From contig JAVXUO010001916.1 in the NCBI GenBank assembly GCA_033065855.1, forward strand, positions 32,605 through 96,604: a DNA stretch of 64,000 bases, in the 5' to 3' direction. Positions 445-62,640 of the stretch are shown here, one piece after another. Positions within the stretch are counted from its first letter, which is position 1; each line of letters starts with the position of its first letter. The notes under the pieces were generated by a model. That model saw only the letters and a list, made by a program, of their open reading frames with translations. It did not search any database and had not been told where the DNA came from. A program made the translations under genes and the position numbers. The stretch is from Escallonia rubra (taxonomy: Eukaryota > Streptophyta > Magnoliopsida > Escalloniales > Escalloniaceae).

Positions 445-573
445 CGGAGGCCCAAGCAAGCTAATCATTCGGACATCGGCAACTTCATCTGCATGTACAT
501 GGACTACATTTGTCGGGATGAGAGCCTCAAGAAGGCTGTCTGGATCGAAGAAGATGTAGAAAAATTTAGATAG
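445..573 (+). pseudogene. Ulp1-type cysteine protease C-terminal remnant of MULE copy 1
   Basis: The last 40 or so codons of the short plus-strand reading frame match the tail of the accessory gene in MULE copy 2 (53850-53935). Copy 2 reads NHSDCGVFILMYMDYI, the region around the catalytic cysteine of Ulp1/SENP SUMO proteases. Copy 1 reads NHSDIGNFICMYMDYI, so the nucleophile position is Ile. The residues upstream that should carry the catalytic His and Asp are not visible. The frame ends at 573 and is convergent with the transposase gene ending at 1882. It is a dead remnant; assignment to Ulp1 rests on this one motif plus the known carriage of Ulp1-like genes by some plant MULEs (Kaonashi type). 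Confidence 0.6.
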
Positions 574-880
574 CTTGGCAAATTCATAGCGGCCGGCTTA
601 GAGCAGTTAGAAATATTGTAAATTCGGCTCACGATGAGAATTGAGGCCCAATGACATTGTAAACGATTATTTTTATGACATAATTTTTATTTTGAAACAT
701 CTGATCTCTTTCTTGAGACATGTTTTTTTGTGTGTTGTGATTTTTTTGGGTGTTGTGGGTTTTTTGTCCTTGTTGAGACAAGTTTGATGATTGGTAAGAA
801 AATGTTATGGTGTGGTTTTTTTGCCCTTGTTGAGATAGGTTGATGGTGGGAAAGAAAATGAGGGTAATGTCTTTACATGT
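574..880. other. 3' flank of the accessory gene, no gene
   Basis: T-rich, AT-rich sequence following the Ulp1 remnant, with repeats of TTTTTTG/TGTTGAGACA-like words near 710-840. No open reading frame of note. It corresponds to 53940-54220 in MULE copy 2. Confidence 0.5.
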
Positions 881-1775
881 TTCTGCTACACCGTCCGCTA
901 TATAGTGTAGCGGACAGCCAAAACACCAAAAAAATTCTAAGTATTGATATCTAATGTTTCTACTACACCATCCGCTACCTAGTCTAGCAGACGGCTTAAA
1001 ACACCAAAAATTCTAAGTGTTGATGTCTAATGTTTCTGCTACACCGTCCGCTACACAGTCTAGCAGACGGACAAAACACCAAAAAAATTCTTAGTGTTCA
1101 TGTCTAATGTTTCTGCTACACCGTCCGCTGCATAGTCCAGCGGACGGCTTAAAACACCTAAACAATTCTAAGTGTTGATGTCTAATGTTTCTTCTACACC
1201 GTCCGTTACATAGTCTAGCGGACGGACAAAACACCAAAAAAATTCTAAGTGTTGATGTCTAATGTTTCTGCTACACCGTCCGCTACATAGTCTAGGGGAC
1301 GGACAAAACACCAAAAACATTCTAAGTGTTGATGTCTAATGTTTCTGTTACACCATCTGCTACATAGTCCAGCGGACGGCTTAAAATACCTAAAAAATTC
1401 TAAGTGTTGATGTATTATGTTTCTACTACATAGTCCAGCGGACGGCTTAAAACACCAAAAAAAAAAAAATAAGTGTTGATGTCTAATGGTTCTGCTACTC
1501 CGTCTGCTACATAGTCTAGCAGACGGCCAAAACACCAAAAAAATTCTATGTGTTGAAGTGTAATTTAAGTGACCAAAAATACCAAAAAAATTCTAAGTGT
1601 TAAAGTCTAATGTTTCTGCTACGCCATCCACAATATAGTGTAGCGGATGGTTTAAAACACTGTAATTCTAAGTTGGCGAAAAACAACAAAAAAATTATAA
1701 GTGTTGATATCTAATATTGTTGCTACACCATCCAGTACATAGTCTAGCAGATGAAAAAAATAAAAATTTAGTGTT
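881..1775. repeat. Tandem array of palindrome-bearing units, about 75 bp each (MULE copy 1)
   Basis: About eleven units spaced roughly 72-80 bp. Each has a hairpin-forming core of the form CCGTCCGCTACATAGT followed by its near reverse complement CTAGCGGACGG, then a spacer containing AAAACACCAAAAAAATTCTAAGTGTTG and ATGTTTCTGCTAC. The array lies exactly between the convergent 3' ends of the Ulp1-tail gene and the FAR1-type transposase. A homologous array sits at the same place in MULE copy 2. Reading frames through it are products of the repeat. Confidence 0.85.
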
Positions 1776-1881: not shown

Positions 1882-3290
1882 TTAAAGGTCGACTGCATCT
1901 TCTTCTTCCTCGCCTTCGGCATCATCTTCTTCGTCGTCTTGCAAACCCCCTGGACTTATCCCCAGTGCCTTGTAATGGTTCCGCTTGTCATGGTTGGTCA
2001 TTTTGTTGGACAGTGCACACCTTCTCAGCTTTTTAGGTTGAGTTGCTTGTTCAATAGAGCTCTTCATCCATGTAGATCTTTTGCGGCTTTCGTTTGCGAT
2101 ATAATTGGATCCAATGGCCAGATATCATTGTCCTCTTCCTCAACCGGCTCATCATCTTCTGATCCCTACATAGGCTCAGTGTCAACCACATTACAGACTG
2201 AAGCTACTTCAAACTGGTCGATGATGGGCTCTTGCTGCTCTGCCATCTCGCAGAGATGTTGATAACCAACCATTGTAGCAGCACCCTTTACGGACAAACG
2301 GGTAATCATTATCACTAGATGATTACACCGCAACGTCTCTGATTCTTCAAAGTTAGTATACAGATGCTCCAAAAATGCAATGGTACTGTGCAACCTATTT
2401 GCAACATTGGTCCACCGCAGCAAGACTTATTTATCGGGGATTACCTTGATATTCTTCTGGCTGAAAAACTGCAGAATGTGTCTACACAGCATGCCATGGA
2501 ACTCAAACTTCTTGCAAACACATGTCACCGAATCCGTTAATGTGTCATGGCTCACCGTATACATTCTACGCAGCTTTTCAAGGACGAGGTCGTTCATCAG
2601 CAAATAAACCTTGTACTCACGTGTAGACTTTTCTACCACCTTGTTTATACTGTATCGTCCCGATTTTTGCAGCTCTTCTTCGTATTGCATGAACATCTCA
2701 TTCGTATAGACTTTTGCACCGTTCACCTCCAGCAGGGTCTCAAGCAACCTTCTCCTTTGTTTGTACGTGCTTGCAAAGTCTGCAGCCCTTTCTTTGATGA
2801 ATAACGAGGCAACTGCTTTTTTGGCTGATGTGACGAAACTCTTCAAATTTTTAGCTGTACCTACATAACTATTGAACAAGGCATTCATAAATTCACTCCT
2901 GCCCGTCATTTTCATGCCCGCAAGAAAAAAACCTTCTCGTATAGACGCCAATCCATTCACCTCTCCTCAAATTCCTCAATCGTTAACGACTTGTTAACGC
3001 ACCTGTCAAAATCTTGTTTGTAGTCTGGATACTTTGCATACACGTGATGCAGACGTTCAGAGTATTTATTGCTTACGTGCCAAGTGCACAAGTTGTGTCG
3101 AGTATCTGGGAAGAAGGTAGGAATAGCCTTCTTCATTGCCAAATCTTGATCGGTGATGATAACTTTAGGAGCTTTGTTGTTCATGGCTTCTAGCCACGTC
3201 TTAAACAACCATACAAAAGAACTCTCGCTCTCATCCCTTAACAATGAAAATCCGAACAGGATGGAGTGATAATGATGATTAACGCCTATC
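1882..3290 (-). pseudogene. FAR1/MULE transposase, C-terminal two thirds (copy 1)
   Basis: The minus strand encodes the middle and end of a FAR1/FHY3-like MULE transposase. From 3290 it reads VIGVNHHYHSILFGFSLL, then the second catalytic Asp in ITDQD, then CTWHVSNKY. It is followed by a SWIM zinc finger (CVC...GMLCRHIL, about 2470-2530) and a C-terminal acidic tail with a degenerate zinc-knuckle-like NKMTNHDKRNH before the stop at 1882. At least two frame changes separate the blocks. The gene is split at 3290 by the CACTA element, and its N-terminal part resumes at 11784. In the intact family this protein cuts and joins the ends of the MULE in the nucleus. Confidence 0.8.
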
Positions 3291-3640
3291 ACTACAAGAA
3301 AAGACAGATTTAGCGACGGACTTTTAGCGACAGAATGCATTCCGTCGCTAAAAAACTTTTCAGCGACATGTTTTATCGTCGATAAAACTTCCGTCGCTAA
3401 AACTTTTTATCGACGGAATGATCAGTCGGTAAAAGTATTTGCCAACAGACTTTTACCGACGGATATTTACCGACAAATGTTACCGTCGCTAAACATTTTT
3501 TAGAATTTTAGAATTTTCGATGTTTTTTAAAAAATATTTAAGCGACGGAATATTTCTGTCACTAAAAATTATGTCTATGAAAAGTTTCTTTTAACGACGG
3601 ACTTTTACCGACAGCATCGTTTCGTCGCTAAAAGTCCTGT
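3291..3640. repeat. CACTA left subterminal repeats
   Basis: Many direct and inverted copies of the motif AGCGACGGA / TCCGTCGCT(A)AAA occur next to the left terminus. Such short subterminal repeats are the binding sites of the TNPA-type protein in En/Spm elements. A second cluster stands at the right end (11525-11760). Confidence 0.8.
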
Positions 3641-11202: not shown

Positions 11203-11783
11203 GGTACCGCTGCTGGACATGCCGAGCCGGCCCCGGATTAGCAGGATCCAGATCCAGGACTCGGCAACCCCTGATGAGCCCCTTCTCGTGCCCGTTCCCA
11301 GCTACCCCCCCCTCCCCGCGCCCGGCTTGTACTCTTCTCCCCTCCCCTAACCGGCTGTATCCGGTTCCCGGCTTGTACATAATGAGTCTTTTTTATAAAA
11401 GACATTTTTTATGATTGATTATATATATTTCTTTGTCTATTGATTATTCCGCGTTGTTGTTGAGAAATGAAATTTTTATTACAGGTCTGGGTAATAGAAA
11501 AAAAACAAATTTTAAAAAAAAATTGACTTTTGACGACAGATTAATTCCGTCACTAAAAGTGTTCCTACTATCAGTTAATTAGCGATGGACTATTCCATCG
11601 CTAAAAAGCTTATTTAGCGACGGAATATTCCGTCGCTAATTTAACAAAAAAGAAAATAAATTAAAATACTTAAATTATAATTAGAGACGGATATTCCGTC
11701 GCAAAAACTTACATATAACACGACAGATTTGAAAATTCCGTCGCCAAACTATTAGTAACGGGCTTTTCTTTTTTCTTATAGTG
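11203..11783. repeat. CACTA 3' region and right subterminal repeats
   Basis: After the TNPA-like gene comes a short 3' trailer, then from about 11525 a cluster of TAGCGACGGA / TTCCGTCGCTAA motifs in both orientations, ending in TTCTTATAGTG at 11783. The cluster mirrors the left end. Confidence 0.8.
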
Positions 11784-12602
11784 TATGAAAGGAGCGAACG
11801 ACATCGAGTACTTGTTAGTACGGTATGTGGTATTGAAAGTCACAACATCCCTGAAATGCTTATAAGCAAGTCTCGAACGACCGTCGACCCAAAAAATTGT
11901 GGTAACTTGGTGCTCGTCGTCAAGTTTATAATCATAGGTAAAGTGCGGGTCCTCAATCTGTATCTGCTTCAATAAGTTCATTGTGGATTGAGCATCATTG
12001 AGGTCATACGTGGCTCGTCTTTGGGTTTAGACTACGTTACGAACTTATGTCGTGTTAAAATTCAGATTGTGAATTCCCCCAGCCTGTTCAGCAAGAACAT
12101 TAACAATGTCGGTAGGTCATATCCGCTCATTACTCATTGTATGAATCAGGCTCCTTGCGACATTACCCATCTTCTTGTGTTAATGCATCTGACTCACCTT
12201 CGAAGGGATTACTAACGGGTGATTTTGTGCAAATTCCAAGGTAGTAATAAGCCAATGATCTTGCTTGGGTATATGGCTTACGAACATCTTGACCTTACAA
12301 TTAGTACGCACAAAGCAGTCTCATCTTCTTCGTGCATATCCTATTTCATCATCACTATCATCATTACCGACGTCTGTCTCATTTTGCAATGGTTGTCTGG
12401 TCCTATGACACCCGTATAAGCGAGAGCATATTTTTTTTGTTATGTTGCTTGTTCTTGTAGTCTTGATTCTAATGTCAAAACCAACCCTCAACGAATACGC
12501 TCGAAAACATTCTTCGGCTTCCTCCAATGTTTGAAATGTTCGCCCTAGATACGGATCACTAGCATTTACTGGGGTGTTGGAGTTTGACACAAAATCAGAC
12601 AT
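11784..12602 (-). pseudogene. FAR1/MULE transposase, N-terminal part (copy 1)
   Basis: The minus strand starts at ATG 12602-12600 (MSDFVSNSNTP), giving a FAR1-type DNA-binding domain (GRTFQTLEEAEECFRAYS) at 12321-12602. After a degenerate stretch the beginning of the transposase domain follows (YDYKLDDEHQVTTIFWVDGRS, then VVTFNTTYRTNKYSM) up to the CACTA insertion at 11783. The first catalytic Asp of the family, seen as FDTTYRTNKY in copy 2, is Asn here (AAT instead of GAC). The start was chosen because copy 2 begins at the equivalent ATG (57419). It continues in sequence at 3290. Confidence 0.75.
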
Positions 12603-12654
12603 TGTGCGACAAAACCTATGTAGAAATAGATTACGCTTAACTATCAAATGGCGT

Positions 12655-12985
12655 TTCTTGAACATAACAAATCAAAATTACATTGATGAATAGCTCAATT
12701 TAGCATGCAAATATAACAAACATAATCTCAAAAGTATCTCCAATTTAACAATTATTAATTTCTTGAACATAACAAATTAAAATTACTCTAATGAATAGAC
12801 AAATTTCGCATGCCAAAATACAACAAACATAATCTCAAAAAATTCGAATTTAACTATAATAATTTTTTTGAAGTTAACAAATCAATTTCTTGAACATCAC
12901 AAATTAAAATTACTTTGATGAATAGACTGATAAATACAACAAACAAACATAATCCCAAAAAAAATTATATATTCATCCAGAAAAA
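12655..12985. repeat. Upstream tandem repeat of the MULE transposase gene, copy 1
   Basis: Three diverged units of about 108 bp with the core AACATAACAAATTAAAATTAC ... GATGAATAGAC ... ACAACAAACATAATCTC. The same array with about 105-bp units stands at 57511-57790 upstream of the transposase in copy 2. Its position suggests promoter or leader sequence. Confidence 0.7.
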
Positions 12986-13149: not shown

Positions 13150-13492
13150 AGGGCACTTTTAGGTATATCTGCCACGTCGTCCGCCATACTGTCTGGCGGA
13201 CAGACGTGGGGGGACAGGATGTGATATGTGTCAGCCAAAAGCCGTCAGCCATACTGTGTAGCGGATAACTTTTAGACTAACAATTGTCAAGGTCAAAAAG
13301 TCATCCGCTACACTGTGTAGGGGACGACTTGGGCGGGGCAGTTTGGTAAAATAAACTGTCGGCCACACTATATAGCGAACAGTTTCTTTCTTTGTAAAAA
13401 AAACAGATCTGGGCCGTCCATCTTTAAAGGATGGACGACCAGATCGCGCGGACAACTTATCCCATTTTGTCCGCGTGGTTAACGGATCAGCT

Positions 13493-13495
<3 letters not shown>
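13150..13495 (-). repeat. Right terminal inverted repeat of MULE copy 1
   Basis: This matches, in reverse complement, the left end of copy 2 (49668-49990), and directly the right end at about 62270-62595. It carries four degenerate palindromes of the type CCGCTACACTGTGTAGCGG, near 13178, 13244, 13301 and 13357. The outer end reads ...GGTTAACGGATCAGCTCCC followed by (TA)n. Confidence 0.8.
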
Positions 13496-15773: not shown

Positions 15774-17044
<1,271 letters not shown>

Positions 17045-19887: not shown

Positions 19888-19921
19888 AATTGGCGCCATC
19901 CGTGGGACCCCTACAGGGAAC

Positions 19922-38069: not shown

Positions 38070-38726
38070 TAATACTTTCTATGTTCTTTTAAAAAAAAAT
38101 AAAAAAAATTTATATCATATGATTTATATAATAAATAAACGTGCAAGTCAAACATAATTAAGCAACTGGAGACGGCAGAAGTACAACCGTCAAAACTAAT
38201 ATGCCTTTTATAAAAACAATCAGTGCAATAAATTGTTGCACTTTTTTTGAGTTTTTATATTTTGGCTTTGCTTGTTTTGGTATTAGGCGTACCCTTAGAA
38301 AATTGGTTGGCGTCTCGCGTGACGGTGAACCTACATTTGTACAACTACGTTTAGATTTGGGCGTAAATTTGGCGGAACGAATCTAGTCTTTACCAACAAA
38401 TGCACCTTTTTAGCAGCAAACCGAAGCCTAAACTGCAGACGTATTGGAGCACTGATTGGTACCTTGCGAAAAGGAAACGTCCAACCCTTGAAGTCAGGCA
38501 GCACCGAACGAAACATTGTTAAGCACTCGGCTTGAAAGCTTTTTATCCTTGACTCTTTCTCTCTTTAGTGCTACGCCAATACTAGCACTAACTTTTCTTT
38601 TTCTCCCTCTACATGCTAGTGGCTCTACGTATCCACCCTCTTTTCCTCTTTCCTTTGAGTGCTTTAACTTCTTGAGGTCTCATTTCATGTTAGCAGCTAA
38701 GACTGGCAAGTTTGGGATGAGGAGAG
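38070..38726 (+). promoter_or_regulatory. Upstream region and probable 5' leader of the trihelix gene
   Basis: Begins after the Stowaway MITE. From 38540 it is CT-rich (GACTCTTTCTCTCTTTAGTG, TTTTCTTTTTCTCCCTC), as in many plant leaders. No clear TATA box was fixed. Confidence 0.35.
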
Positions 38727-40616
38727 ATGGATAGGGATACAAAGCAAGACAACCCATCTGCACTAAGCAATAACAATCACAAGATCAAGGAAGAATCCCC
38801 TAGGAAGCTGCCACTTGGTGGTGGTGGTGGTGGCGGTGGCGCCAACAACGACAGGTTAAAGAGAGACGAATGGAGCGAAGGGGCGGTTTCGACGCTGCTA
38901 GAGGCTTACGAGGCCAAATGGGTCCTTAGGAATAGGGCAAAGCTCAAAGGTCACGACTGGGAAGATGTTGCCAAGTATGTCTCGTGCCGTTCCAATTCAA
39001 CCAAGTCACCCAAGACTCAAACACAGTGCAAGAACAAGATCGAGTCCATGAAGAAGCGGTACCGGTCCGAGTCTGCCACCGCCGATGGTTCTTCTTGGCC
39101 GCTTTTTCCGCGGCTTGATCTCTTACTACGCGGAAGTGCTGCTCCTCCTCCGCCACAACCCGCTCTTGCTAATCCTCCTTTGATGCTATTGGAACCGTTA
39201 CCGCCACGGGAAGAAGTGCCACCACCACCACCACCACCACCAGCTCCAGCTCCAGCTCCTGCTATCCCACTTGGTGTTGCACAAAATTCAATTGGTTCAA
39301 CTGGCGTTGAGCCGGTGGCAAAGGTAAACTTTCCAATGTTTTCTCTTTCTTGTTCTTGCAAATAGATTAGCTCGTTCCATCGGGTCATGATTATCTTTAG
39401 TGTCGAGCTCTTTACTGATTAATCAACACCGAAACAGAAGAAAAGAAAATTTCGAGAACAACTGAATTTTTTTTCCGGGCATGATGGTTTTTAGCCTAAT
39501 ACGATTTCAACTACCAAAATAAGACTTCGTTCACAAAGCTTCACTAATCTGGGTAGGCCTTTGTGAGCTGTGAACTTCACTCCCAAAACTTTTCAACTGA
39601 AATTGAGTGGACAGGGTACTAGAATTTTCCAGCTTTTGGTGACTGAAAAGATGACCGCTTGATAATTTACCTTCGCCTTTTCCCCCTAAAAAGGGCTTTT
39701 TAGTCTAGGCGTAATGATATCGTGTTAAGTTTCCTTTAGGCATCCCACAAGAGGCCCGAGTCAGATGGGCACTTCTCTTATTAGTCAGCTCAATTTCACT
39801 CCACCATTCCACACGCACTTACATGCTGATATGATGCCAAATAGCGGAACAGCATAACCATGCTTAGTCCAAGTGCGCTTTTTTGTTCTCTCTTTTTTTA
39901 GTCAGACGGTAAGAAGTAACTTTTTTGGTTGGATGGTAAGAAGTAGTTTCGAGGCAGCTTCTCTTTCTCGTATAATTTTTAAAGGTTCAAACCTCCTTGA
40001 TCACTAAGGAAACCTCATGGAGTTTATGCCAAGTATGATTTAGACATGATGATACGAGGATAAATAACATAATAACATGGGCATGCGTGGCCCAAGACAT
40101 GGTGGTACTTGAGTACGATTTAGCAATTCCAACAATCTTTGCATCCTAATTAAGCATGGGTAGGAACGAATGAGTTGGGCAATCCCACAATCAAAATAAA
40201 CTAATGGCTGCCAAATATCCTTCTGATATTCGCAGGAAGATGGAGGGGCTATGACATTGTCAGATCATGTTGCAGAAAAGAATGCCATTGAGACGGATAG
40301 TAGCACACCTGCCCTCTATAGCGACAAGGAGAAGATGAAGTCGAAGAACCTCAAGACAAAGAAGAAGCGGAAGAGGGAAGATTGGGACATCTCAGAGAGC
40401 ATTCGATGGTTAGCTGAAGTAGTAGTGAGGTCGGAGCAAGCGAGGGTGGACACGATGAGGGAGATAGAGAGGATGAGGGCGGAAGCCGAGGTCAAGAGAG
40501 GAGAGATGGACCTGAAACGAACCGAGATCATCGCTAACACACAACTGGAGATTGCTAGACTCTTTGCGGGCTCTGCAAAAGGCGTCGATTCTTCATTGAG
40601 GATCGGAAGAAGTTGA
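38727..40616 (+). CDS. Trihelix transcription factor (SIP1/ASIL-like)
   Basis: Two exons, 38727-39323 and 40236-40616, joined in phase 0 (GCAAAG|GTAAAC ... CGCAG|GAAGAT), give 325 residues. A Gly run (residues 31-38) precedes the trihelix/MADF-type domain at about 47-125, with WSEGAVSTLLEAYEAKW, LKGHDWEDVAKYV and QCKNKIESMKKRYR. A Pro/Ala-rich linker with PPPPPPPP follows. Exon 2 gives a basic KTKKKRKR signal and a C-terminal coiled coil (WLAEVVVRSEQARVDTMREI ... RTEIIANTQLEIARLF) typical of the SIP1 clade. It should bind GT-type promoter elements in the nucleus; Arabidopsis relatives ASIL1/ASIL2 repress seed-maturation genes. The start is the first ATG in frame with the domain. Confidence 0.9.
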
Positions 40617-49483: not shown

Positions 49484-49667
49484 TTAACATTATGAAAAAT
49501 ATTTTATTTAACTATAAAGAATAATATTAGTACCGAAATTAATCACGACTAACTTGAGTAAAATATCAAAAAACGAATTCAATGCATTATTCCCAATTTT
49601 TTATTATTAAATATCATTATTTGTTTGATTAGGCTGCATGTAATTATTATGATATATTTATATATAT
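49484..49667. other. AT-rich gap between two MULE-type elements
   Basis: Short AT-rich stretch ending in ATATATTTATATATAT immediately before the left end of MULE copy 2. Confidence 0.6.
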
Positions 49668-49990
49668 GGAGCTGATATGTTGACCGCGAGAGCAAATGGG
49701 GCTAAGTTGCCCGCGCGATCTGGCCGTCCATCCCCAAATCTTTAAAAAAAACCCCAGACCTTTTGACCAAAATGCCCCGCCCTTCTCGCCCGCTACAAAG
49801 TGTAGCGGACTACTTTTTAACCCTGACAATTGTCAATCAAAAATTCGTTCGCTACACTGTGTGGCGGACGACTTTTGGCTGACATAGTGTCACATCTTGT
49901 CCCCCCACTCCGTCCGCAGACAGTATAGCGGATGGAAGTTATCCTTATCCACACCGTCTGCTACATTGTGTAGCGGACGTTACATATAAA
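49668..49990 (+). repeat. Left terminal inverted repeat of MULE copy 2
   Basis: Contains four palindromes of the CCGCTACA...TGTAGCGG type near 49790, 49848, 49903 and 49948. The reverse complement matches the right ends at 13150-13495 and 62270-62595. Confidence 0.85.
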
Positions 49991-50281
49991 AACAACAAAC
50001 TCCTAATTTCGAAAGTCTTATCTCTTCTTTCTTCTTCCCAAACTTCCCAGCGGCGTTGACAAGTAGATCTTTGCAATTTCTTTTCAAAAAGTCCCTTTAT
50101 CGTCTAATTAATCACGTAAGTTCACAAATCAATCATTTATTTGTTTATAATCTAGAGTTTATGATGAATATTGAGTATTATGCATGATTTTGATTATATA
50201 AGTAGATCTATGCATGATTTTGATTATGTATTATGCATGTGTTAGTGTTGGTAATTTCTACATTCCGTGTATGTGTGTGCA

Positions 50282-50286
<5 letters not shown>

Positions 50287-50325
<39 letters not shown>
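50287..50325. repeat. (TA)n microsatellite
   Basis: About 39 bases of pure TA upstream of the plant-mobile-domain gene. The flanking 49991-50459 is otherwise a leader-like AT-rich region with repeated TATGCATGTGTTAGCGTTG words. Confidence 0.95.
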
Positions 50326-50326
<1 letters not shown>

Positions 50327-50459
50327 CATGTGCTAGCGTTGTATGTATTATACATGTCCTAGCGCTGTATGTATTATGCATGTATTAGCGTTGGTAATTT
50401 GCGAGCGTTTGATAAAAGCTTCCAAACTTGATATTTTTCCATAATTTCAGTGGTGAAAA

Positions 50460-53400
50460 ATGGCCTTTAATCCTGGACCGGAAGATCCCTTCATATTATA
50501 CGACCAAAAAAACCATATTAGTACATCGATTTGGAATGGACACGTAAGATGCTTTTTTTTGTTTATTTTCTTATTCTCACGAACATTGTATACCTTTTGC
50601 TTTGCTTAAATTGTTTTTATTAATTTGTAGGAAAGAGCATCACTCATCACAGTCAGTGTTATAAAAAGCGCGCCTAGGCGCGCTAAGGCTCACTAGTTGC
50701 GCCTCGCCTAGGCCTAGGCACAATGCGTTCAAGAAGGCACGCGCCCGGCACAAAGGCGCAAGACGCATCGCGGGGCGGAAGGCGCGAAGCTAGGCGCATG
50801 AGCTCTAGCCGTTGGATATGCCATCGTGTTTTTACGTGGGCCGTTGGATATGCTTTCAGATTTTAACATATTCAAGTCTTAAGACACTAACACAGTAAAA
50901 TCAAAATCCCTAAGTCTTTTTCATCAGTCACTCTCACAGTCTCAATTTTCACGCACGGAACGGTCGCCGCTTGCTTGCCTTTCCCGTGGCCTCCGCCGAC
51001 AGCCTTGCTCCGATCATCGCATCGCCTTTCCCTATCGCTACTGACGGTTTGTTGCTCCAGCCCCTGCTCCAGAGTCCGGCCAACACCGCCGCTGTTTACT
51101 TGTAAGTTGTAACTGGTTAGTATTTGCCGTCACCAACAATTTTCCCTTTTTCTTGTTGCTAATGGAATTTGAGACTTGAGTAATACTAGTTTACTTGGTG
51201 ATGAACTCAGCTGGTTAGCATGTGACTTGTTCATCTCCATTTTTGGTCTAGTGTGGTTTTGCACGTTACATGTTTGACATATTGCGTCAATGACTGTGCT
51301 TTGCTCTATCCCTGCAATTATGCTATGGTCAAGAAATTGTTAGTATAAGGGATGAACCCTTTAACAAAATTAGCTGTTTCCATTTGCTTAAGGACTATAC
51401 AAAAACTAATAACATGGAAGTTAGGGCACTTGACTACACAAATGGAGCTCTCTTTTTCTGCTGATTACCACACAAAGAGAGTGTTTCACCCAAATTTCTT
51501 TTCCGAAGTTAGTGCACGTTTGCAGTGGACAAAAGATAATGAAAGCACATTCTGTAATTTGTGATGGGTGCCATAGTCCTAGGCACCTGGCATGAAGGAA
51601 TTGCAACTGAAATTCCTTCAAAGGATTTATGACTTTTCTCATGTTAAAAGCTTGTTAAATTATGATGTTATAAAATTTGGAACTTTTTCTTGTGTTTGGA
51701 AGATTGTTAATTGTCATTTTTTTATTTTTTTTTGACGTAATTTTATTATTTTAATGCACTATTATTATTTATTTTTAATATTGCACCTCGCTTCGAAAAG
51801 GTGCGCGCCAAGGCTCTAGGGACCTTTTGCGCCTTAAGTACGCTTGCGCCTTTAATAACACTGATCACAATAGAAGTAAACGAACAATTCAGAAATTGGC
51901 AATTGAACAAATTTTAGAAAAAAAAATTGTTGCATGGAATTGGGTTTGGGGTTTTTACACATGGGGATATCTTTCAGGAAATTGACCGGAACTTAATAGG
52001 TGCTCTTGTTGAAAGGTGGAGAAGTGAAACGAATAGGTTTCACTTTCCTCTTGGAGAGATGACAATAACCTGAGAAGATGTAGGGTTCATCTTAGGGTTA
52101 CCGGTGACGGGGCGGCCGGTAATTGATCCTCTGTCTTCCGCAACAAATAAAAGAGCTACGAGGGACTTCTTTACTTCGATACCCGAGAGTGAATTTAGCA
52201 GTGGTGGGATAAAGTTTAGGTGGTTGGTCGAAAATTTCGGGGTTCTGCCAAAGGTCTTCCTGCTGTGGGTGATGAGGGCAATTCTATTCCCAACGACGTT
52301 GAAGAATACGGTTCAAATAAAATATTTAGCGTTGTTGGGTAACTTGCAAGAGGTTGGGGAGTATGCCTGGGATGCAGCAACTCTTACCTACTTGTATTGA
52401 GCATTGCACAAGCCAACGAGGCCCGACTCCAAAGTTATATGTGCATGTCTTTCATTGTTGCATGTATATCATTTAACTCTTTGTAATTATGTTTTTTATA
52501 TTTTTTATTAGTCGATGCACAATAAGTTTTGACGATGTGACTCTAATTTCTCTTTGTTCTCAGGTGTGGTCTTATGAACACATTATTACCGACGTACCCA
52601 ACTGTGGGAAGGGAACCAATAATGTGTGGCATCGGTTGTGCGCTTGGGAGTACATTCAGAGGTAGAGCCACTACTCAAGGAGAGATGATCCCCATCACAA
52701 CATTGTGTTCTATCGGGCAGAGTTCAACTCGCTATCTCCGGGCCAAATGTGTTGGGCGCCGTATAAACGTTTGACGGGACAGGTGGCAGAGTCTTTCATC
52801 TTCACGCTCTCCGGGTTGCAACGCACACCACTAATCCACTTTGAGATCTCGGAGTGGCAACTATTAGATCGCACAATGTGCCATTTTAACTGCCTGCAAC
52901 GGTTGCCAGCCGATGCCCCAGATATGAGGGTAAATAAAAACCCCCCGGGTGTCCCACAATTTTGTCAAGGTGAATGCGCACGAATTGTGTGCAAATGAAA
53001 TTGAACTGTGGGGTTCTTGGCAAGACACGCTAGCGGCCATTGTGTGGGAGCCTGACCCCGTGGTCAGCATTGAGCAGTATCTAGGGTGGTACTACCGCAT
53101 CACTCGGAAGAGAACTGCCCTAATAAGGTGGACAAAAGGGCAGAAGTACCACCCTAGGGGTCAGATCGATGAGCATAAGGCATATGAGCTCGTAAGTTGC
53201 CTGATGCTTTTGATTGAATTTAATGTTTCTTGTTTTACATTCAATCTCGTTTGTGTTTGAAGTTACTTATTATCTCTTTGGATGTAGGTTAATGCCTCGC
53301 TCGCCTTCTTCAAGAAGCTGAATGAGCGGAAGCATCTGATTGATGCCATGAGAGCGTATCTTCGCTCCCAGGCTGAGGTATTGACGATTGGCTACAAGGA

Positions 53401-53935
53401 GTTTGTGAGCCGTTATACAGGACACCCTTCGGGCGTGAGCCCGGGAATGGATTATCAGGGTTGGCAGCCTCCCCATGTGAGCGAGGGATACAATGATCCC
53501 TCGAGGAAAACTTCAAGGGTGAGCGAGGGAGTTGGTGGTCCCTCTGTAGCTGGGATGGGTGGATCTTGGGGCCGCTATCGAGCATGGGAATGGCTCATTG
53601 GGATGAGTTCAGTGCCCTATCGTTTGCTTTGCTTGGGGACTCGAAAGTTACACCACTCTGTCAGAGTCAAGTCACACAAGACTTCGACTTCGTAAACTTC
53701 AATCTCTTCGTGTCACTGCCACTCATCCTATGGGCGGGATGTTCTGGCCTTGGGATACCCGAAGAGCCGTAGGAGGACAATATCCCCCTGTTGACCCCCT
53801 CCCCCCCGGAGGGCAATATCCCCCAGACGACAATATCCCCCGACCCATGCAAGCTAATCATTCGGACTGCGGCGTCTTCATCTTGATGTACATGGACTAC
53901 ATTTGTCAGAATGAGAGTCTCAAGGTAGCCGTCTA
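50460..53935 (+). pseudogene. Plant mobile domain (PMD) gene with Ulp1-type tail carried by MULE copy 2
   Basis: Exon 1 (50460-50543) reads MAFNPGPEDPFILYDQKNHI, the opening typical of MAIN/MAIL1-like and PP7-long-form PMD proteins. GTAAGA donor and TTTGTAG acceptor lead to exon 2 at 50631, which is split by the hAT at 50654-51863. The PMD continues from 51978 (GALVERWRSETNRFHFPLGE, then GFILGLPVTGRP after a stop at about 52070). It goes on through 52564-53260 (HNIVFYRAEFNSLSPGQMCW, HELCANEIELW, YYRITRKRTALIRWTKGQ) and 53288-53560. The last segment (about 53848-53935) has NHSDCGVFILMYMDYI, the catalytic-Cys motif of Ulp1 proteases. Several frame changes make it non-functional. PMD proteins are known as host silencing factors and as genes in plant transposons; what the domain does for the element is unknown. 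Confidence 0.72.
50654..51863. mobile_element. Non-autonomous hAT element, 1210 bp, in the PMD gene
   Basis: Ends CAGTGTTATAAAAAGC and ...TTTAATAACACTG are inverted repeats. The 8-bp flanks ATCACAGT (50646-50653) and ATCACAAT (51864-51871) match at seven of eight positions. Subterminal DNA is full of GCGCCTAGGCGC and AAGGCGC words. The interior is AT-rich with a central CT/GC-rich part near 50940-51110, and no transposase was recognised. Confidence 0.85.
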
Positions 53936-54224
53936 GAGCGAAGCAGACGTATAAAACTTTAGATATATGATAACTTGACAAATTCATAGCGGACGGCCTA
54001 AAGTCGTTAGGAATATTGTAAATCCGGCTCACCACGAGAATCCGGCTCAAGATGAGGCCGAATGACATTATAAACATTTATTTTTATGACATAGCATTGT
54101 TACTTCAAATTGCTTGTGATTTTGAAACATTTGATCTCCTTTGTTTATGAAAGGCAATGTGAATCAGACATTTGTGTTGTGGTTAATAATTTTATGTGTT
54201 TTGGAAAAAATTCTAAATGTGGGA

Positions 54225-54900
54225 GTGCAATGTTTCTGCTACCTCGTCCGCTACATAGTGTAGCGGACGACTAAAACACCAAAAAAATTCTAAGTGTTGG
54301 ACCCCAAAGTTTCTGCTAGGTTGTCCGCTGCATAGTGTAGCGGACGGCTAAAACACCAAAAAAATGTGTTGGACTCCAATGTTTCTGTACACAGTGTAGC
54401 GGACGATCATAAGCACCAAACAAATTCTAAGTGTTGGAGTGTAATGTTTCTGCTACCTCTTCCGCTACATAGTGTAGTGTAGCAGACGGTCATAAACACC
54501 AAAAAAATTATAAGTGTTGGAGTGTAATTTTTCTGCTACCTCGTCCGCTACATAGTGTAGCGGACGGCTAAAACATCTAAGTGTTGGACTCCAATGTTTC
54601 TGCTAGGCCGTCCGCTACACAGTGTAGCGGACAGCCAAAAACACCAAAAAAATTCTAAGTGTTGGAATGTAATATTTCTACTACCCGTCCGCTACATAGT
54701 GTACCGGATGGCTAAAACACCAAAAAATATTCTAATTGTTGGACTTCAATGTTTCTGCTAGGCCGTCCGCTACACAGTGTAGCGGACTGACAAAACACCA
54801 AAAAAGTTATAAGTAGTGGAGTGTAATATTTTATGCTAAGTCATTCGCTACACAGTGTAACGGACGACAAAAAACACAAAAAAAAAAAAAAAAATTAAGT
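54225..54900. repeat. Tandem array of palindrome-bearing units (MULE copy 2)
   Basis: About nine units of 70-80 bp with the core CCGCTACACAGTGTAGCGG or close variants, separated by AAAACACCAAAAAAATTCTAAGTGTTGGA and AATGTTTCTGCTA. It lies between the convergent ends of the Ulp1-tail gene (53935) and the transposase (55150), as in copy 1. The palindromes are better kept here than in copy 1. Confidence 0.88.
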
Positions 54901-55149
54901 GTTGGACTACAATGTTTCTGCAAGAGTACATTAAAATTGGGCTAAATGTTGGATGCAATGTTTTTGCAAGAGTACATTAAAATTTAGGTAGTAAAGAAAC
55001 ACAATTCGTGAATAATCAAATGGTACGGTAAAATTTGAGTATGAATAAACATCTAGGATTATTACAGGATTATTACAAAGTCTACAATTCAAATACAACG
55101 CCAACAGACTTGATGGATCCTAAAAGATTATTACAAAAATAAAATTAGA

Positions 55150-57419
55150 CTAAAGGTCCACTGCATCTTCTTCGGCATCATCTTCTTCCTCATCTTGAAA
55201 ACCCCTCGGACTTATCCACACTGCCTTGTAATGGTTCCGTTTGTCATGATTGGTCATTTTGTTGCACAGTGTACACATTCTCAGCGTTTTAGGTTGAGTT
55301 GCTTGTTCAGTAGAGCTCTTCATCAGTGCAGATCTCTGGCGGCCTTTCGTTTGCGATATAAATGGATCCAAAGGCTGGATATCATTGTCCTCTTCCTCAA
55401 CCAGCACATCATCTTCTGATCCCTGCGTAGGCTCAGTGTCAACCGCATTGCTGACTGAAACTACTTCAAACTGGTCGACGATAGGCTCTTGCTACTCCGC
55501 TATCTCACGGAGATGTTTATATTCGGTCATTATAACAGCACCCTTTACGGACAAACATGTAAACATTGTCACCAGATGATTATACCGCAACGTCTCTGAT
55601 TCTTCAAAGTCAGTATACGGATGCTCTGGAAAGGCAATGGTACCGTGCAACCTATTTGCAACCTTAGTCCACCGCGGCAAGATGTATATATCGGGGATTG
55701 CCTTGATATTCTTTTGGGTGAAAAATCGCAGAATGTGTCTACACAGCATGCCATGGAACTCAAGCTTCTTGCAAACACATGTTACCGAATCCGTCTCTGT
55801 GTCATGGCTCACTGTATAGAATCTACGTACCTTCTCAGGGGTGAGGTCGTTCACCAATGAATAAACCTTATACTCACGTGTAGACTTTCTGCCACCTTGT
55901 TTATACTGTATCGTCCTGATTTTTACAGCTCCACTTGGTATTGCATAAACATCTCATTCGTATAGACTTTTGCACCATTCACCTCCAACGGGGTCTCAAA
56001 CAACCTTCTCCTTTGTTTGTACGTGCTTGCAAAGTCCGCAGCCTTTTCTTTCACGAATGACTGTGCAATCACTTTTTAGACGGATGTGACGAAACTCTTC
56101 AAATTTGTAGTTGTACCTACGTAACTATTGAACAAGGCATTCATAGATTCACTCATGCCCGTCGTTTTCATGCCCGCAAAAAAACACCTTATCGTGTAAA
56201 CGCCAATCCATTGCTCTTTGAGCTCATACAAGTGTTGGAGCCACTTGTGGTCTTGCAATGAGTAATCCCGAACAACATTTTCCACCTCTCTTCAAATTCC
56301 TTAATCTTTAACGACTTGTTAACGCACCTGTCAAAATCTTATTTGAAGTCTAGATACTTTGCATACACGTGATGCAGACGTTCAGGGTATTTGTTGCTTA
56401 TGTGCCAAGTGCATAAGTTGTGTCGAGTATCTGGGAAGATGGTAGGAATAGCCTTCTTTATTGCCAAATCTTGATCGGTATGATAACTTTAGGTGTTCTG
56501 TTGCTCATGGCTTCTAGCCATGTCTTAAACAACCATACAAAAGAACTCTTGCTCTCATCCCTTAACAATGCGAACGCGAACAGGATGGAGTGATAATGAT
56601 GATTAACGCCTGTGAATGGAGCGAATGTCATCGAGTACTTGTTGGTACGGTATGTGGTGTCGAAAGTCACAACATCCCCAAAATACTGATAAGCAAGTCT
56701 CGAATGACCGTTGACCCAAACAATTATGGTAACCCGGTGCTCATTGTCAAGTTTATAATCATAGGTAAACTGCGGGTCCTCCATATACATCCGCTTCAAT
56801 AGGCTCATTGTGGATTGAGCATCATTGAGGTCATACGAGGCTCGTCTTTGGATTCGGACCGCGTTACGAACGTCTGTCATGTTAAAGTTTCGATTATGAA
56901 TTCCCCCAACTTGTTCAGCAAGAACATTAACAATATCGGTAGGTCATATCCGCGCATTACTCATTGTGTGAATCAAGCTCCTTATGACATTACCCATCTT
57001 CTTGTGTTGATGCATCTGACTCACCTTTGAAGGGGTTACTAACGGGTGATTGTGTGCCAATTCCAAGCTAGTAATAAGTCAATGATCTTGCTTGGGTTTA
57101 TGGCTTACGAACATCTTGACCATGCAATTCGTGGGCGTAAAAAAATCTCATCTTCTCCGTGCATATCCTATTTCGTCGTCACTACCGACGTGTTTCTCAT
57201 TTTGTAATGGGTGTCTACTCCTATGACATTCATATAAGCAATATCATATTTGTTTTGTTACGTTGCTTGTTCTAGTTGTCTAGATTCTAATGCCAAAACT
57301 AACCCTCAACGAATACGCTCGAAAATATTATTCGGCTTCTTCCAATGTTCAAAACGTTCGCCCTAGATACGGATCACTAGCATCTACTGGGTCTTTGAGC
57401 TTGACCCGAAATCAGACAT
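55150..57419 (-). pseudogene. FAR1/MULE transposase (copy 2)
   Basis: The start at 57419 equals that of copy 1. A degenerate FAR1-type DNA-binding region (57250-57419) leads into the transposase domain at 56458-56880 (YDYKLDNEHRVTIIVWVNGH, VVTFDTTYRTNKYSMTFAPF, GVNHHYHSILFAFALL). The first catalytic Asp is kept, in FDTTYR. Further blocks are at 56076-56285 and 55492-55857 (SWIM zinc finger CVCKKLEFHGMLCRHIL). A C-terminal zinc-knuckle-like CTLCNKMTNHDKRNH (55150-55407) comes before an acidic end. At least four frame changes or stops separate the blocks. The uninterrupted 56600-56640 stretch shows the empty site of the CACTA insertion in copy 1. Confidence 0.8.
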
Positions 57420-57510
57420 TGTGAAACAAAACCTACGTAAAAATAAATTATGTTTAACTATCAGATTGTAACATTTTTAGGCATGGAAATTAATTAAAAA
57501 GGGGGTCTCT

Positions 57511-57790
57511 TGAACATAGCAAATCGAAATTACTTTGATAAATAGACCAATTTAGCATGACAAATATAACAAACATAATCTAAAAAAATCAAAATTAACA
57601 ATTATTAATTTCTTGAGCATAACAAATCAAAATAACTTTAATGAATAGACCAATTTAGCATGCCAAATACAACAAACATAATCTAAAAAAAATACGAATT
57701 TAATAATAATTAATTTCTTAAACATAACAAATTAAAATTACTTTGATGAATAGCTCATAACTACAACCAACATAATCTCAAAAAAAATTA
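57511..57790. repeat. Upstream tandem repeat of the MULE transposase gene, copy 2
   Basis: Three units of about 105 bp matching 12655-12985 (AACATAACAAATTAAAATTA ... CAATTTAGCATGCCAAATAC). Confidence 0.72.
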
Positions 57791-58487
57791 TATAAACATC
57801 GAAAATAATTCACCATTTTACCCATAAAAAAAACTTCACCATTCACCCACTTACCTTGCTTGTAGGGATGGCAATGGGGCGGGTCGGATGCGGGTTTTAC
57901 GAAATTCCGAACCCGCCCCGCTACTTAGTAAACTTTGTCTCGCCCCAGTCCGGGTTATTTATGTTAAATACCATACCCGATCCTATGTAGATTTAGGAAC
58001 CCCGAACCCGCCCCGTTCCGCCCCGGCCCGCGCTGTAGCACGCAAAAAACCCGATCCGACCCGATCCGACGACCTGTTCTACTGACTACTTGGTATTGCA
58101 GATTTCACTCTTTTTAAACATGTATAACACCAAAACTTACACCTGTGTCACAAAAAATAAACTATACACATCATATTAATGTCTAAAAATTCTAAAAAGA
58201 CATTAGTAAATTACAACATAGTTCAAATAAATTACAACATAGTTCAAATAAATTACAACATATTCAAATTAATGTTCAAAAAGATAACACCACATTAACG
58301 TTCAATCACTGGGAAGTAGCAAATACAAGAGATCAAGCTCGTTAAGCCGGTCCGCATTCCAACTCCAAAGTCCAAATATAACTGCAGTCACCGTTCACTG
58401 AAAAAATAATAGGAATAAAATGACATTAAAATGAATGGATACAAAAAAAAAAGTAAAATTAATCTGAAATACAATTTACCCAAAGAA

Positions 58488-60757
58488 TCATACATCCGTC
58501 ACACATGAGCTGTCACCGTCTTTGTCATCATTAATTGTTGCATATTCCTTGTGTGCTAGATTAGATACACCTACAACACCATAGTACAAATTTACAAGTA
58601 CCCGTGAAAATTCAAAGTATTGTCAAATTTAACTGCATGAATAAAATAATAGAATGAGCTTACCTTTCATTTCAGCAGCCCACAACCAGTCTTGAGCACA
58701 CATTAACGCTTCTAGTGTCTTTGGATGAAGCCTATTACGGTGAGGACTCACTAACCTACCACTTGTGCTAAAAGACGCCTCTGATGCGACTGTAGATATG
58801 GGAATAGCAAGAATATCCTTAGCCATCAACTGTAATGTTGGGTATTTCAATCCATTAGTCCTCCACCAAGCCAAATATCAAAGTCCAAAGACCTAGGCAA
58901 CACATCCTCCTCGAGATAATGATCCAACTCAGATTTTACTACAGTCTTTCTCTTCTTCTTGACATGTTCATCGAAACCTTTAAGAGAATCTAGACATCCC
59001 ACCTCAACACGCTCTTGCGAGCGAACAGATGATCCTCCACGAGTATTATGATCACTAACCTCTCTATTTTGATACTCACGAAGAAGTCTATAACAAAGTG
59101 ATGATACCTTTTCAGTTTCTCCCTCTTCTCCCGACCCGTAAAGCTGACTATAATAATACTGAATCAACTCCATTTTGTACCTAGGATCCAACACTACAGC
59201 AACCGCCATGATTCCATGAATATCCAACCAATATTTATCGAACTTCTCAAGCATTTTCTTAGCCATACTTCTAATCACCTCACTTGAGCTCATGAGCCAC
59301 TCACCTAACACCATTCTAATCTCACAAATTTTAGGAAAAAACAAGTTAGCCGTAGGATACTTTGTGCCCGAAAACATCTTTGTTGTTTCATAAAACAACC
59401 TCAACTTGTCACAAATCTCTCTTGCAAAAGTCCACTCCTCTTCACTTGGGCAAATTTTATATTGAGACTCTCGTTGCTTCAAGCGAAAAAAAACATCTTT
59501 ATACACAAATGCAGTTTCAAGCATAAAAAACGTTGAGTTCCATCTTGTAGGACAATCAAGTGCCAACTTTTTTGTGCTTGAAATACGCAATTGACGAGCA
59601 GTCTCTTCAAATTTCTCATCTCTCTTCGGTGATGCCCTCCAAAAAGCCACATTATCTCTAACCTTTTCAATTCCCTCATTTATCACACTCAACCCATCTT
59701 TAACAATCAAATTCAACACATGTGCCGTACACCGCATATGAATCAATTCAACAAACAATAACATAGAACTAGAATCCAACTTAAGCAACAAGTCATCAAT
59801 CATCGCATCATTCGTAGTACAATTGTCAACCGTAATTGTACATAATTTTCTATCAATGTTCCAATCAAGCAATGTTTGTGACAAAGCCTCACAAATAACT
59901 TCACTAGTGTGTGGACATGGCAAATATAAGAACCTATAAAGGATAAATTTAACAATTATTATGCGAAAGTAGGAATAAAATTAGATTGTAAAATACCAAA
60001 TTTGCAAAAAAAGTAAAGCATACCTCAAAATGCGACTTTGAAGAATGAACTCTTCATCGATAAAATGTCCCGTGACAGCCATGAAACCCTTCTTTTGATT
60101 ACCAGAAGTCCACAAATCAGTAGTGACAGCAACCCTACTTCTTATCCCCTCCAACAACTTCATCACTTGCTCCCTCTCATGTTCATAGATATTTATAATG
60201 TCGCTCTTCACTGTGTTCCGGGTTGGTATCTTAAACAATGGCTGAAGTGCAGACGAATACCTCCTAAACCCCACGTGGTCAACAATAGATAACGGGTATT
60301 CATGCAAAATTATCATGGTTCCAAGTTCTCTCCTGGCAAAATCCTGATCAAAGGTATAATTACCTAATTCGGGCTTAACATTTGCTTTACCCATTATCCC
60401 AGCCAAGAGTTTCTGTCTAACATCCGGTTGCCTTAGACGTTTACATCTGTCTAAGTGCACACGCAAGTAAGTAGTCCCATTTTTTGGGTTTGCCCCAAGG
60501 GTTTTCCGGCAGTGACTACATGTTGCTGTCACATTTCCACCATTTTTTTTCCTTTCGAAGTGCGCCCACACACTACTTTTCAAGTTCTCGTTGTTTAAAT
60601 CATTGGCGCCACTGTCAAGGTCAACTGGTGTAGAAGCAGAGACTCCCATGCTTGCATTTGGTGTTGATGGCTCAAAAGTTTGATCCTCTAATGTAGCTCT
60701 AGGGGTTTGCACCGGAGATGATGCAACGGGAGAAGACGTAATTTCATTGGAAGACAT
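58488..60757 (-). pseudogene. hAT transposase (BED zinc finger, RNase H-like, hAT dimerisation)
   Basis: Exon 1 is 60024-60757, starting MSSNEITSSPVASS. A BED zinc finger spans about residues 61-108 (WAHFERKK, CSHCRKTLG, HLDRC) and the first catalytic Asp region is VTTDLWTSGNQKKGF. After an 89-bp GT-AG intron (59934-60023) exon 2 runs from 59933: FLYLPCPHTSEV, TITVDNCTTND, CTAHVLNLIVKDGL, CPTRWNSTFFML. Near 58880 one base is lost in a T run, shifting frame. The other frame then carries AWWRTNGLKYPTLQLMA, IPISTVASEASFSTSGR and RNRLHPKTLEALMCAQDWLW, the hAT dimerisation domain with the catalytic Glu. A likely last exon (58488-58570, ending CVTDV) follows an intron starting GTAAGC. Apart from this single shift it appears complete. 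The protein would excise and insert the element in the nucleus. Confidence 0.88.
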
Positions 60758-62151
60758 GATTTTATCTATATATTCATTTAAACAGAAAAGAATGATTTTC
60801 AAGAAAATCAAATAAATAATACCTACTCCGAAATAATACCAAATTAGCAAGGACTTTTCTAATATGCCCTCATAAAACCATAAGTAAACTATCTCAGGAA
60901 ACTTGCTACTTGGAAAAGAGTGTTAATTTAAGGACAGCTTGGACATGTTAAGCAACTGAATAACTGATATAGGAAAGCCCTAACATCAAGTTTCTCACTC
61001 TTGGTAACACATGAAAAGTAGTACACAGCTGAAATAAAATCAACAGCAATAAAAGAAGATTAATTAAACCAGAATACAATGAGGTCGATTAGCAAAGTAA
61101 ACTTTCATTAATTAAGAAAACTAACTCTGCTGGGTAAAGGGTATTGATTAGATATCCGGTTTGAACCTAACAGGCAACAAACCTACAGTTTCCAGCAAAG
61201 TGTCAACATTCAACACTTCAAGTTTTACAAAAAGCATTTGGGTTTTAAAGTGAACGTAATTAACAGTCTAACAGAAGACATGGAAACAAACAAACCAGAA
61301 GAATGCATTCTCTTGTTTTATGGGTATACAGTATACACTATACACATATATAAAAAGATGAAATCCTGTTAAAAATCATGCACCCAACCAAATACTGAAA
61401 ACCCATCGTAGTGTGATTAGTGGAGGCCCCTGCATGATCAAAACCCATCGGATTTCACCAGGTTTACTCTGATTTTTAAGAATACAGTTACTCTATCTAT
61501 AGCAAGAACAAGCGGGTGGGTGCGTACTGCGTACCTGGACACTGCAGATCCAACTCTGAGAGCCGTGCGCCTTGCGGTGCTGCGGTGGTGGTTCGTCGCA
61601 GTAGATCCAACTCTCGTCGCAGTACTGGCAGTAGATCCAACTCTAAGAACAAGCTTGTCGCAGTGGTGGTTCGTCGCCGTGTGGTACTGCGGTGGACAGC
61701 CGTGCGAGGTGCGGTGGGCTCCAATTCGTGAGGTGGTCAGGTGGATGGAGAGTGGCCGGAGCCGTGAGCCGTGCGCCGTGCGGGTGGAGAGCGGCCGTGC
61801 CGTCGGTACCGCAGTGGCTGTCTGGCTATCCGCTGTCGTCTGTCGAGATTGGAGAGGCAAGCCGCAAGCAGTCAAAGCACAAATCTAAAAGTAGGGTGGA
61901 AAATAGACATTAAGATTTAAGACATATATATATGGTATAGATGGACGGCTAAGATTAAGTAAGCTATTAGGGTTAGTATACCGGGGCGGGGCGGGGCGGT
62001 GTAGGTAAATACCATACCCGCCCCTAACCCGCTGCGGGTTTTTTTTTAAATACCATACCCGCCCCACGACCCGGTCAAAGTCAAAAAAACCCGGTCCTAT
62101 CGGGGCGGGGCGGGGCGGAAACCTGCGGGTTCGGATTTTTTTGCCATCCCT
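60758..62151 (-). other. hAT 5' leader and subterminal region
   Basis: Upstream of the transposase start lies AT-rich DNA to about 61440. A GC-rich block (61500-61870) follows, with repeats of GTAGATCCAACTCT and GTGGTGGTTCGTCGC. Then come terminal GGGGCGGGGCGG tracts at about 61982 and 62102. Frames through the GC-rich block have no recognised domain; promoter function is inferred from position only. Confidence 0.45.
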
Positions 62152-62269
62152 ACTTGCTTGAGTGAAGCTTGAAGCTATGTTACTTGAAGTTAGGAACTTA
62201 AGGGGAGCTGAAAATGGAGGCAAGTAGAGCTCAAGAGCTAAAAATGGAAGAAGAGCTGAGAATTACCAA

Positions 62270-62590
62270 AATTTAGGTATATTTGCCACTGCCATCCGCT
62301 ACACTGTCTGGCGGACGGAGTGGGGGAAAAGATGTGACACTATATTAGCCAAAAGTCGTATGCCATATAGTGTGGCAGATGACTTTTTGAGTGACAATTG
62401 TCAGGGTCAAAAAGTAGTCTGCTACACTATGTAGCAGACAGGAAGGGCGGGGCATTTTGGTCAAAAGGTCTGTCCCCCACACTGTGTGGTGGACAGTCTT
62501 TATTTTTAAAAAAAAGATCTGGGCCGTACATCCTTAAAGGATGGACGGCTAAAAGTGCGGGCAACTTAGCCCAATTTGCCCGCGCGGTCA

Positions 62591-62595
<5 letters not shown>
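62270..62595 (-). repeat. Right terminal inverted repeat of MULE copy 2
   Basis: Four degenerate palindromes near 62291, 62347, 62417 and 62473. It matches the copy-1 right end directly and the left end in reverse complement. Confidence 0.82.

Positions 62596-62640
<45 letters not shown>
62595..62640. repeat. (TA)n microsatellite at MULE copy 2 right end
   Basis: About 46 bases of TA separate the MULE right end from the dispersed repeat copy B. Confidence 0.95.

Follow-up and report, generated by a model that had tools for sequence, protein, structure and literature searches.

A palindrome common to the terminal repeats and the convergent gene junction of a Mutator-like transposon family in Escallonia rubra: a putative regulatory site

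A stretch of 64,000 nucleotides from the plant Escallonia rubra (GenBank assembly GCA_033065855.1, contig JAVXUO010001916.1, positions 32,605 to 96,604 of the forward strand), here called the window, contains two copies of a transposable element in which a 23-bp palindrome, GTCCGCTACAYWGTGTAGCGGAC, occurs both in the terminal repeats and in an array between the two genes. Judged by its sequence, the element is a Mutator-like transposon (MULE) whose FAR1-MULE-SWIM transposase gene, on the minus strand, faces a plant mobile domain (PMD) gene on the plus strand that ends in an Ulp1/C48 protease. The palindrome is a real, family-wide and well-placed site of putative regulatory type. Our tentative reading is that it is a dyad-symmetric site for a protein made by the element, most likely the PMD-Ulp1 protein acting as an anti-silencing or activating factor similar to VANC. 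An initial annotation of the window had taken the terminal sites to suggest binding by the element's own protein, and we accept this as the likeliest meaning of the site, with the protein as a candidate.

With up to six mismatches allowed, GTCCGCTACAYWGTGTAGCGGAC has 30 matches in the 64 kb, each lying in one of the three terminal repeats or of the two central arrays (Table 1); 20 Markov simulations yielded 0.05 on average. A looser consensus with three free center positions (up to 6 mismatches in 20) has 34 matches, where 0.85 would be expected; the four outside the repeats and arrays (13576, 13785, 14523 and 16559) are weak, with five or six mismatches. Local alignment located the four palindromes that the initial annotation had described in each terminal repeat, together with a weaker fifth one at 49878-49890 in the left repeat of copy 2 (score 20, as low as that of the site at 62362), and its central counts of about eleven and nine were also recovered. 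The spacing, given there as 55-65 bp, was measured as 54-67 bp; the left repeat of copy 2 departs from this, with steps of 57, 65 and 44 bp. The same palindrome is indeed reused in ends and center, but the 19-mer originally quoted is exact only at 54612 and 54767, the other sites being variants. In both window copies and in C85, a relative elsewhere in the source genome, the sites begin ~100-120 bp inside the element end. A second type of palindrome, CCGTCCATCTTTAAAGGATGGACG-like, is present in the outer terminal repeat (13414-13437 and 62524-62547) and has CCGTCC/GGACG in common with the main one.

Table 1. Coordinates of the two element copies and their parts within the window
Feature	Position	Strand	Details
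Copy 2, whole element	49668..62595	.	both ends abut (TA)n
Copy 2, left terminal inverted repeat	49668..49990	+	4 palindromes: 49790-49810, 49847-49869, 49912-49932, 49956-49978
Copy 2, accessory gene, PMD part	52074..53692	+	frames 52074-52397, 52666-52995, 52934-53257, 53288-53692
Copy 2, accessory gene, C48/Ulp1 protease remnant	53607..53933	+	DCGVF stretch
Copy 2, central array	54205..54885	.	9 palindromes (54246-54865), unit ~77 bp
Copy 2, transposase pieces	55153..57467	-	C-terminal tail, SWIM region, MULE domain, FAR1 region
Copy 2, nested hAT-like transposon	58850-60922		BED finger, hAT RNase-H fold; in C2613 too
Copy 2, right terminal inverted repeat	62270..62595	-	4 palindromes: 62295-62316, 62362-62379, 62417-62439, 62472-62494
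Copy 1, accessory gene end (C48 remnant)	448..540	+	tblastn, C303L 10053-10145
Copy 1, central array	877..1753	.	11 palindromes (893-1752), unit ~77 bp
Copy 1, transposase, C-terminal part	1939..3406	-	
Copy 1, transposase, N-terminal part with FAR1 region	11712..12671	-	separated by inserted DNA
Copy 1, right terminal repeat	13150..13495	-	4 palindromes: 13179-13201, 13244-13265, 13304-13325, 13358-13380
(TA)n flanks	49660-49668, 13495-13523, 62595-62640		

The two genes were identified by Pfam and by alignment to C85. The MULE domain (PF10551) is matched at 7.8e-19 in the window and at 3.8e-33 in C85, in which FAR1, MULE and SWIM all exceed the cut-off; in copy 2 the SWIM match is under the cut-off (0.012), and the FAR1 region was located by tblastn with the copy 1 piece. 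The C85 accessory reading frames match PMD (4.3e-50 and 1.5e-18) and Peptidase_C48 (3.4e-05 and 2.3e-06), and SENP2 is the top solved-structure match of the first protease part (1.2e-06). The first two frames of the copy 2 accessory gene match PMD (PF10536; 4.9e-16 and 8.8e-09), and the last two have no Pfam match and align to the C85 copy. The protease remnant of copy 2 alone has no Pfam match either; it was recognized through its final 31 residues, which align at 71% with C85 6651-6743, inside the Peptidase_C48 frame (2.3e-06). The PMD gene and the transposase are convergent in copy 2 and in C85, and both window arrays lie between the last accessory-gene homology (at 448-540 and in the frame ending at 53933) and the last transposase homology (1939 and 55153), in keeping with the initial description of a MULE whose genes converge on the array. 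Both copies are damaged, copy 2 by the hAT insertion and copy 1 by other DNA between its transposase halves. The terminal inverted repeats of copy 2 comprise 186 bp at 87% within its 323/326-bp ends, plus 84 bp at 81%. Contig C2613 of the source assembly is probably a haplotig of copy 2, since its 99.3% match over 16 kb extends into the flanks.

We then consider the family in the source genome (566 Mb). A looser pattern, GTCCGCNANANNNTNTNGCGGAC, has 18,172 exact matches there and its reversed control has 0; with the 30 window matches against 0.05 expected, these control counts reject a chance origin of the palindromes, as do the reversed controls of the other genome patterns, which likewise had 0 matches. 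Ten elements were tabulated, with region limits set by hand; having been found via this terminal repeat or this transposase, they are a non-random sample. Relatives without the central array, and palindromes no more frequent there than in other MULE DNA, had been named at the outset as observations that would speak against the proposal. The array is present in all nine tabulated elements with both gene ends, with 9, 11, 13, 4, 17, 18, 10, 15 and 13 sites, so the layout is not an oddity of the two window copies. With no more than four mismatches, a limit at which simulations gave an expectation of 0, the same arrays have 9, 8, 12, 4, 16, 17, 8, 14 and 13 sites. For six elements both ends were recovered, and the 41,333 bp of their other interior DNA contain no site at either limit.

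The tenth tabulated element, C3020, was left out of this count; it lacks an array, and the 3' half of its transposase is missing too. Outside the table are C2613 (array present), C247 (array sites, no transposase match), C2290 (accessory start only), C1465 (six sites beside the transposase end, no accessory match), C1249 (no sites) and C1881 (five sites), the last two with neither gene end matched in the stretch examined, as well as C1912, which belongs to another family. Sites beyond the element limits occur in four tabulated stretches: two each in C303L, C404 and C85, and three in C3020.

Further arrays were found genome-wide. The central sites of C85 form two groups, one of five next to the stop codon of the transposase, the other a near-uniform tandem array of twelve with its own variant (the looser consensus of the tabulation counts one more). 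The C85-type array unit has 1,444 matches in the genome with one mismatch allowed; among the matches listed, runs at 78-bp steps comprise 9 units in C64, 9 in one C85 array and at least 11 in C439. For C64, C155, C257, C259, C408, C439 and two C85 arrays, the accessory-gene side has a PMD match at a distance of 2.0-2.3 kb, which fits arrays lying at the gene junction; the other listed arrays have no nearby PMD match among the 150 matches listed. In a separate list of 150 matches, 64 of the 149 frame lengths taken from it are 770-790 aa.

A diverged PMD-C48 MULE, C1912, aligns to this family in nine pieces at 32-57% of amino acids. Its own span has no such palindrome and instead carries 322-bp tandem repeats outside its genes. 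These 322-bp tandem units (~99% alike) make up its long inverted repeats, and a 60-bp repeat is found within its accessory region. A short motif common to the 322-bp repeats and the intergenic DNA of C1912 was also sought, and shared k-mers gave only AGATTTTTC, which led nowhere.

Several features of the sites help to judge how they are maintained. The information content inside the palindrome is 1.42 bits per position for 110 array sites and 1.41 for 53 terminal sites (flanks, 0.55 and 0.26), and nine per-element array consensuses give 1.83 bits inside vs 1.27 in the flanks, the values inside being inflated because sites were chosen by likeness to the consensus. Array units also keep two extra blocks, TCTAAGTGTTG and GTTTCTGCT, which indicates that the unit is inherited whole. 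At conserved C/G positions, 405 of 3,240 cells have changed (12.5%), 320 of them by transition (79%), vs 74 of 1,944 (3.8%) at conserved A/T positions; such C/G-biased transitions are as expected of DNA that is methylated part of the time.

One alternative is that the palindrome is a passenger, bound by a host transcription factor or by no protein, which was multiplied as the terminal repeats spread and as tandem units duplicated. The number of tandem units varies between copies, related elements in the source genome carry inner variants of the site, and in nine aligned whole terminal repeats, a comparison unaffected by that choice of sites, the palindrome columns are conserved no better than the remainder (mean pairwise identity 0.802 vs 0.805 elsewhere, p = 0.95), i.e., selection on the palindromes over the remaining repeat is not seen at this depth. 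What remains is reuse, however: the same palindrome stands at four different places of each repeat as well as in the array, although the sequences around it are no longer alike, and the remaining interior of the six elements lacks it. A passenger is doubtful in our estimate, which the flat terminal-repeat test raised somewhat.

Another possibility is that the array works as RNA, with strong hairpins at the converging 3' ends that stop both transcripts or feed small RNAs. The copy 2 array folds far better than shuffled sequences (-242.9 kcal/mol, z -11.7, 20 shuffles), and pairs of dyad positions covary. The covariation set comprised 324 sites, some double-counted where stretches overlap (e.g., two in C1465), and the 281 distinct ones were used; 19 of the 324 have six mismatches, a level at which chance alone yields matches (0.85 per 64 kb). 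Compensated double changes are more numerous than expected at positions 7/17 (43 vs 11.9), 9/15 (24 vs 12.9), 2/22 (4 vs 0.22) and 1/23 (12 vs 7.5), and are not in excess at 11/13 (19 vs 24.0) or at 3/21, 4/20, 5/19 and 6/18 together (8 vs 12.6). The G+C arms, i.e., pairs 3/21 to 6/18, are not maintained by pairing, which argues against an RNA function. So do fixed mismatches, C-C at 9/15 in 9 of 11 array units of copy 1 and G-A at 7/17 in 12 of 12 units of the long C85 array, and the presence of the same palindrome in terminal repeats, away from the gene 3' ends. We consider an RNA role improbable. The covariation pattern would suit a homodimer with a drifting inner preference, or else a hairpin; overall it is weak evidence, because related sequences inflate such counts.

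Small derivatives of the element are informative about a third possibility, in which the transposase, through its FAR1 domain, binds the palindromes, several sites per end build a synaptic complex, and the array titrates the transposase or regulates its gene. One derivative (C80) is a 133-bp element made up of GGGAGCTGATCC ends, two perfect palindromes and little else. There are 34 places of 117-136 bp with both ends, and the palindrome is present in all 7 whose sequence was read in part. Two larger derivatives, C12 (1.4 kb) and C70 (1.1 kb), keep the terminal palindromes and lack the central array. Such gene-less derivatives suggest that the palindrome is used in cis, which would fit a transposase site and silencing relief in trans alike. 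In addition, Hermes, a hAT transposase, makes extensive contacts with its left end via multiple BED domains (PMC10368747). On the other hand, the short derivatives that were read are near-identical and thus form a single lineage, the sites lie inside the end whereas a core site would more likely be formed by its outermost bases, GGGAGCTGATCCNTTG, and a pure end-recognition site leaves the array in every tabulated two-gene element unexplained. Transposase binding is in our view rather unlikely, although less so than the RNA and passenger alternatives. The decoy, synapsis and small-RNA roles that the initial annotation offered for the central copies are possible roles.

The elements sit in (TA)n microsatellites: TATATN precedes 1,164 of the 3,175 exact ends GGGAGCTGATCCNTTG, with one TA phase counted. 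A 9-bp target-site duplication was sought, and the ends were found to abut (TA)n of varying length. Eight derivatives of ~130 bp are clustered at C2288:86450-88115, some at steps near 142 bp, and resemble a small satellite.

One of the known systems closest to this layout is that of the Arabidopsis VANDAL elements. VANC proteins bind a repeated short motif in the noncoding DNA of their own family and strip silencing marks (PMC5735166, PMC10398659), and the motif bound by VANC21 spreads as tandem repeats (PMC5735166). As in our family, VANDALs are MULEs with an extra gene and with a short motif that recurs in their terminal and intergenic noncoding stretches (PMC5735166, PMC10398659); the number of tandem motifs differs between copies, and sites are confined to noncoding DNA. 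In contrast, VANC has DUF1985 and DUF287, whereas the accessory protein here has PMD and C48 with DUF1985 below threshold; the VANC motif is short and of one orientation, whereas the core site here reads alike on both strands; VANDALs are called non-TIR, i.e., without terminal inverted repeats (PMC13317346), whereas the terminal repeats here are long; and binding and demethylation have been demonstrated for VANC, whereas for the present system both are hypothetical. DUF1985 and motif symmetry place the family outside VANDAL/VANC, and it may nonetheless work like VANC.

With regard to the accessory gene, many plant MULEs carry PMD genes, which have been described antisense to the transposase (PMC6446971), and an anti-silencing role of MULE-borne PMD was raised as a speculation by Ikeda et al. 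(PMC5418596). The Arabidopsis PMD proteins MAIN and MAIL1 have been linked to a promoter motif (PMC7156037). The antisense-PMD groups (MUDR, MUDRAVI2, MDR and MULE-Monocots) share with our family a SWIM-finger transposase, the antisense PMD gene and terminal repeats of tens to hundreds of bp, but a palindromic array, a C48 part and (TA)n insertion were not found mentioned for them in the available text (PMC6446971). Ulp1 genes are known in reverse orientation within MULEs (PMC2528002), and Ulp1-bearing VANC genes of the KIU type were reported to recognize motifs in noncoding DNA (PMC13317346). KI-MULEs and KIU genes thus resemble our family in having an Ulp1-type protease gene reversed relative to the transposase, but these are non-TIR elements, and no palindrome was found described for them in the parts available (PMC2528002, PMC13317346). 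MuTAnT of Medicago is likewise a MULE family of TA microsatellites with short derivatives, but is smaller, and its available description has no accessory gene or array that we could find (PMC4486113).

The initial annotation knew of no MULE family with such a layout. This holds in part: antisense PMD genes, reversed Ulp1 genes, VANDAL motif arrays and (TA)n targeting were already published. In the available portions of the literature on MULE-end palindromes and on palindromes linked to PMD or Ulp1, three features appear to be undescribed: the palindromic site itself, its presence in long terminal repeats as well, and an array placed where the genes converge.

How might an anti-silencing factor use these sites? 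The terminal-repeat sites lie at the outer ends of both genes, presumably the promoter positions, and the central array spans the junction where both transcripts presumably end. Bound protein would keep this noncoding DNA clear of silencing marks, so that the transposase could be expressed and the ends would be accessible; non-autonomous copies would retain terminal sites and so profit in trans. In favor of this reading we count the placement of the sites, their reuse in array and ends with hardly shared surroundings, the copy-number differences between arrays, the lack of pairing constraint in the G+C arms, the PMD and C48 matches of the C85 accessory gene, the C/G transition decay, and C1912, which lacks the palindrome and has tandem repeats of its own outside its genes. 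Control-region placement, tandem turnover and a PMD-Ulp1 companion gene together match the logic of VANC.

Several observations weigh against it. The palindrome columns show no excess conservation over the rest of the terminal repeat, a result for which we slightly lowered our estimates of this reading and of the broader one given below. Co-evolution of array and terminal sites within elements was tested and is unsupported: array and terminal sites taken from a single element resemble each other no more closely than sites from different elements do (permutation fraction 0.29 of 720). Dyad covariation at 7/17 and 9/15 is also expected of a hairpin, and the two-palindrome derivative of 133 bp suits a transposase site at least equally well. 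VANC21 has a short motif of a single orientation, vs a 23-bp palindrome here, and DUF1985 reaches only 0.025-0.031 (~15 bits vs a cut-off of 35.1; Pfam, single exons scanned). The anti-silencing reading is thus plausible rather than probable.

The window contains other features as well. A tandem array of 160-bp units with CTAATTAGC-like words occupies 5261-6250, in the DNA inserted into copy 1, with a DUF4218 frame near it. At 19587-25228 there is an element of the long terminal repeat type with 299-bp direct repeats (98% alike) and a 768-aa frame with a gag match, the only frame seen so far, followed by 65-bp and 47-bp tandem arrays. Host-like genes encode a Transferase-family protein (15777-17044, minus strand), an ARM-repeat protein (26069-27007, plus strand) and a Myb/SANT-like DNA-binding protein (38721-39362, plus strand).

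A broader reading, which we hold to be less likely than the anti-silencing role as such, is that the family represents a second anti-silencing system of VANC-like build, in which a PMD-Ulp1 protein would act on a 23-bp palindromic operator and the terminal repeats are long. Such an operator would then be present at ~18,000 exact sites in the 566 Mb, and could serve as a cis passport for tiny derivatives consisting of ends and two operators. In any case, the palindrome provides a concrete candidate DNA target for a PMD-Ulp1 protein that can be tested in a gel, with thousands of candidate sites placed across one plant genome, and the system offers a natural comparison with VANC for the evolution of sequence-specific escape from silencing in transposons.

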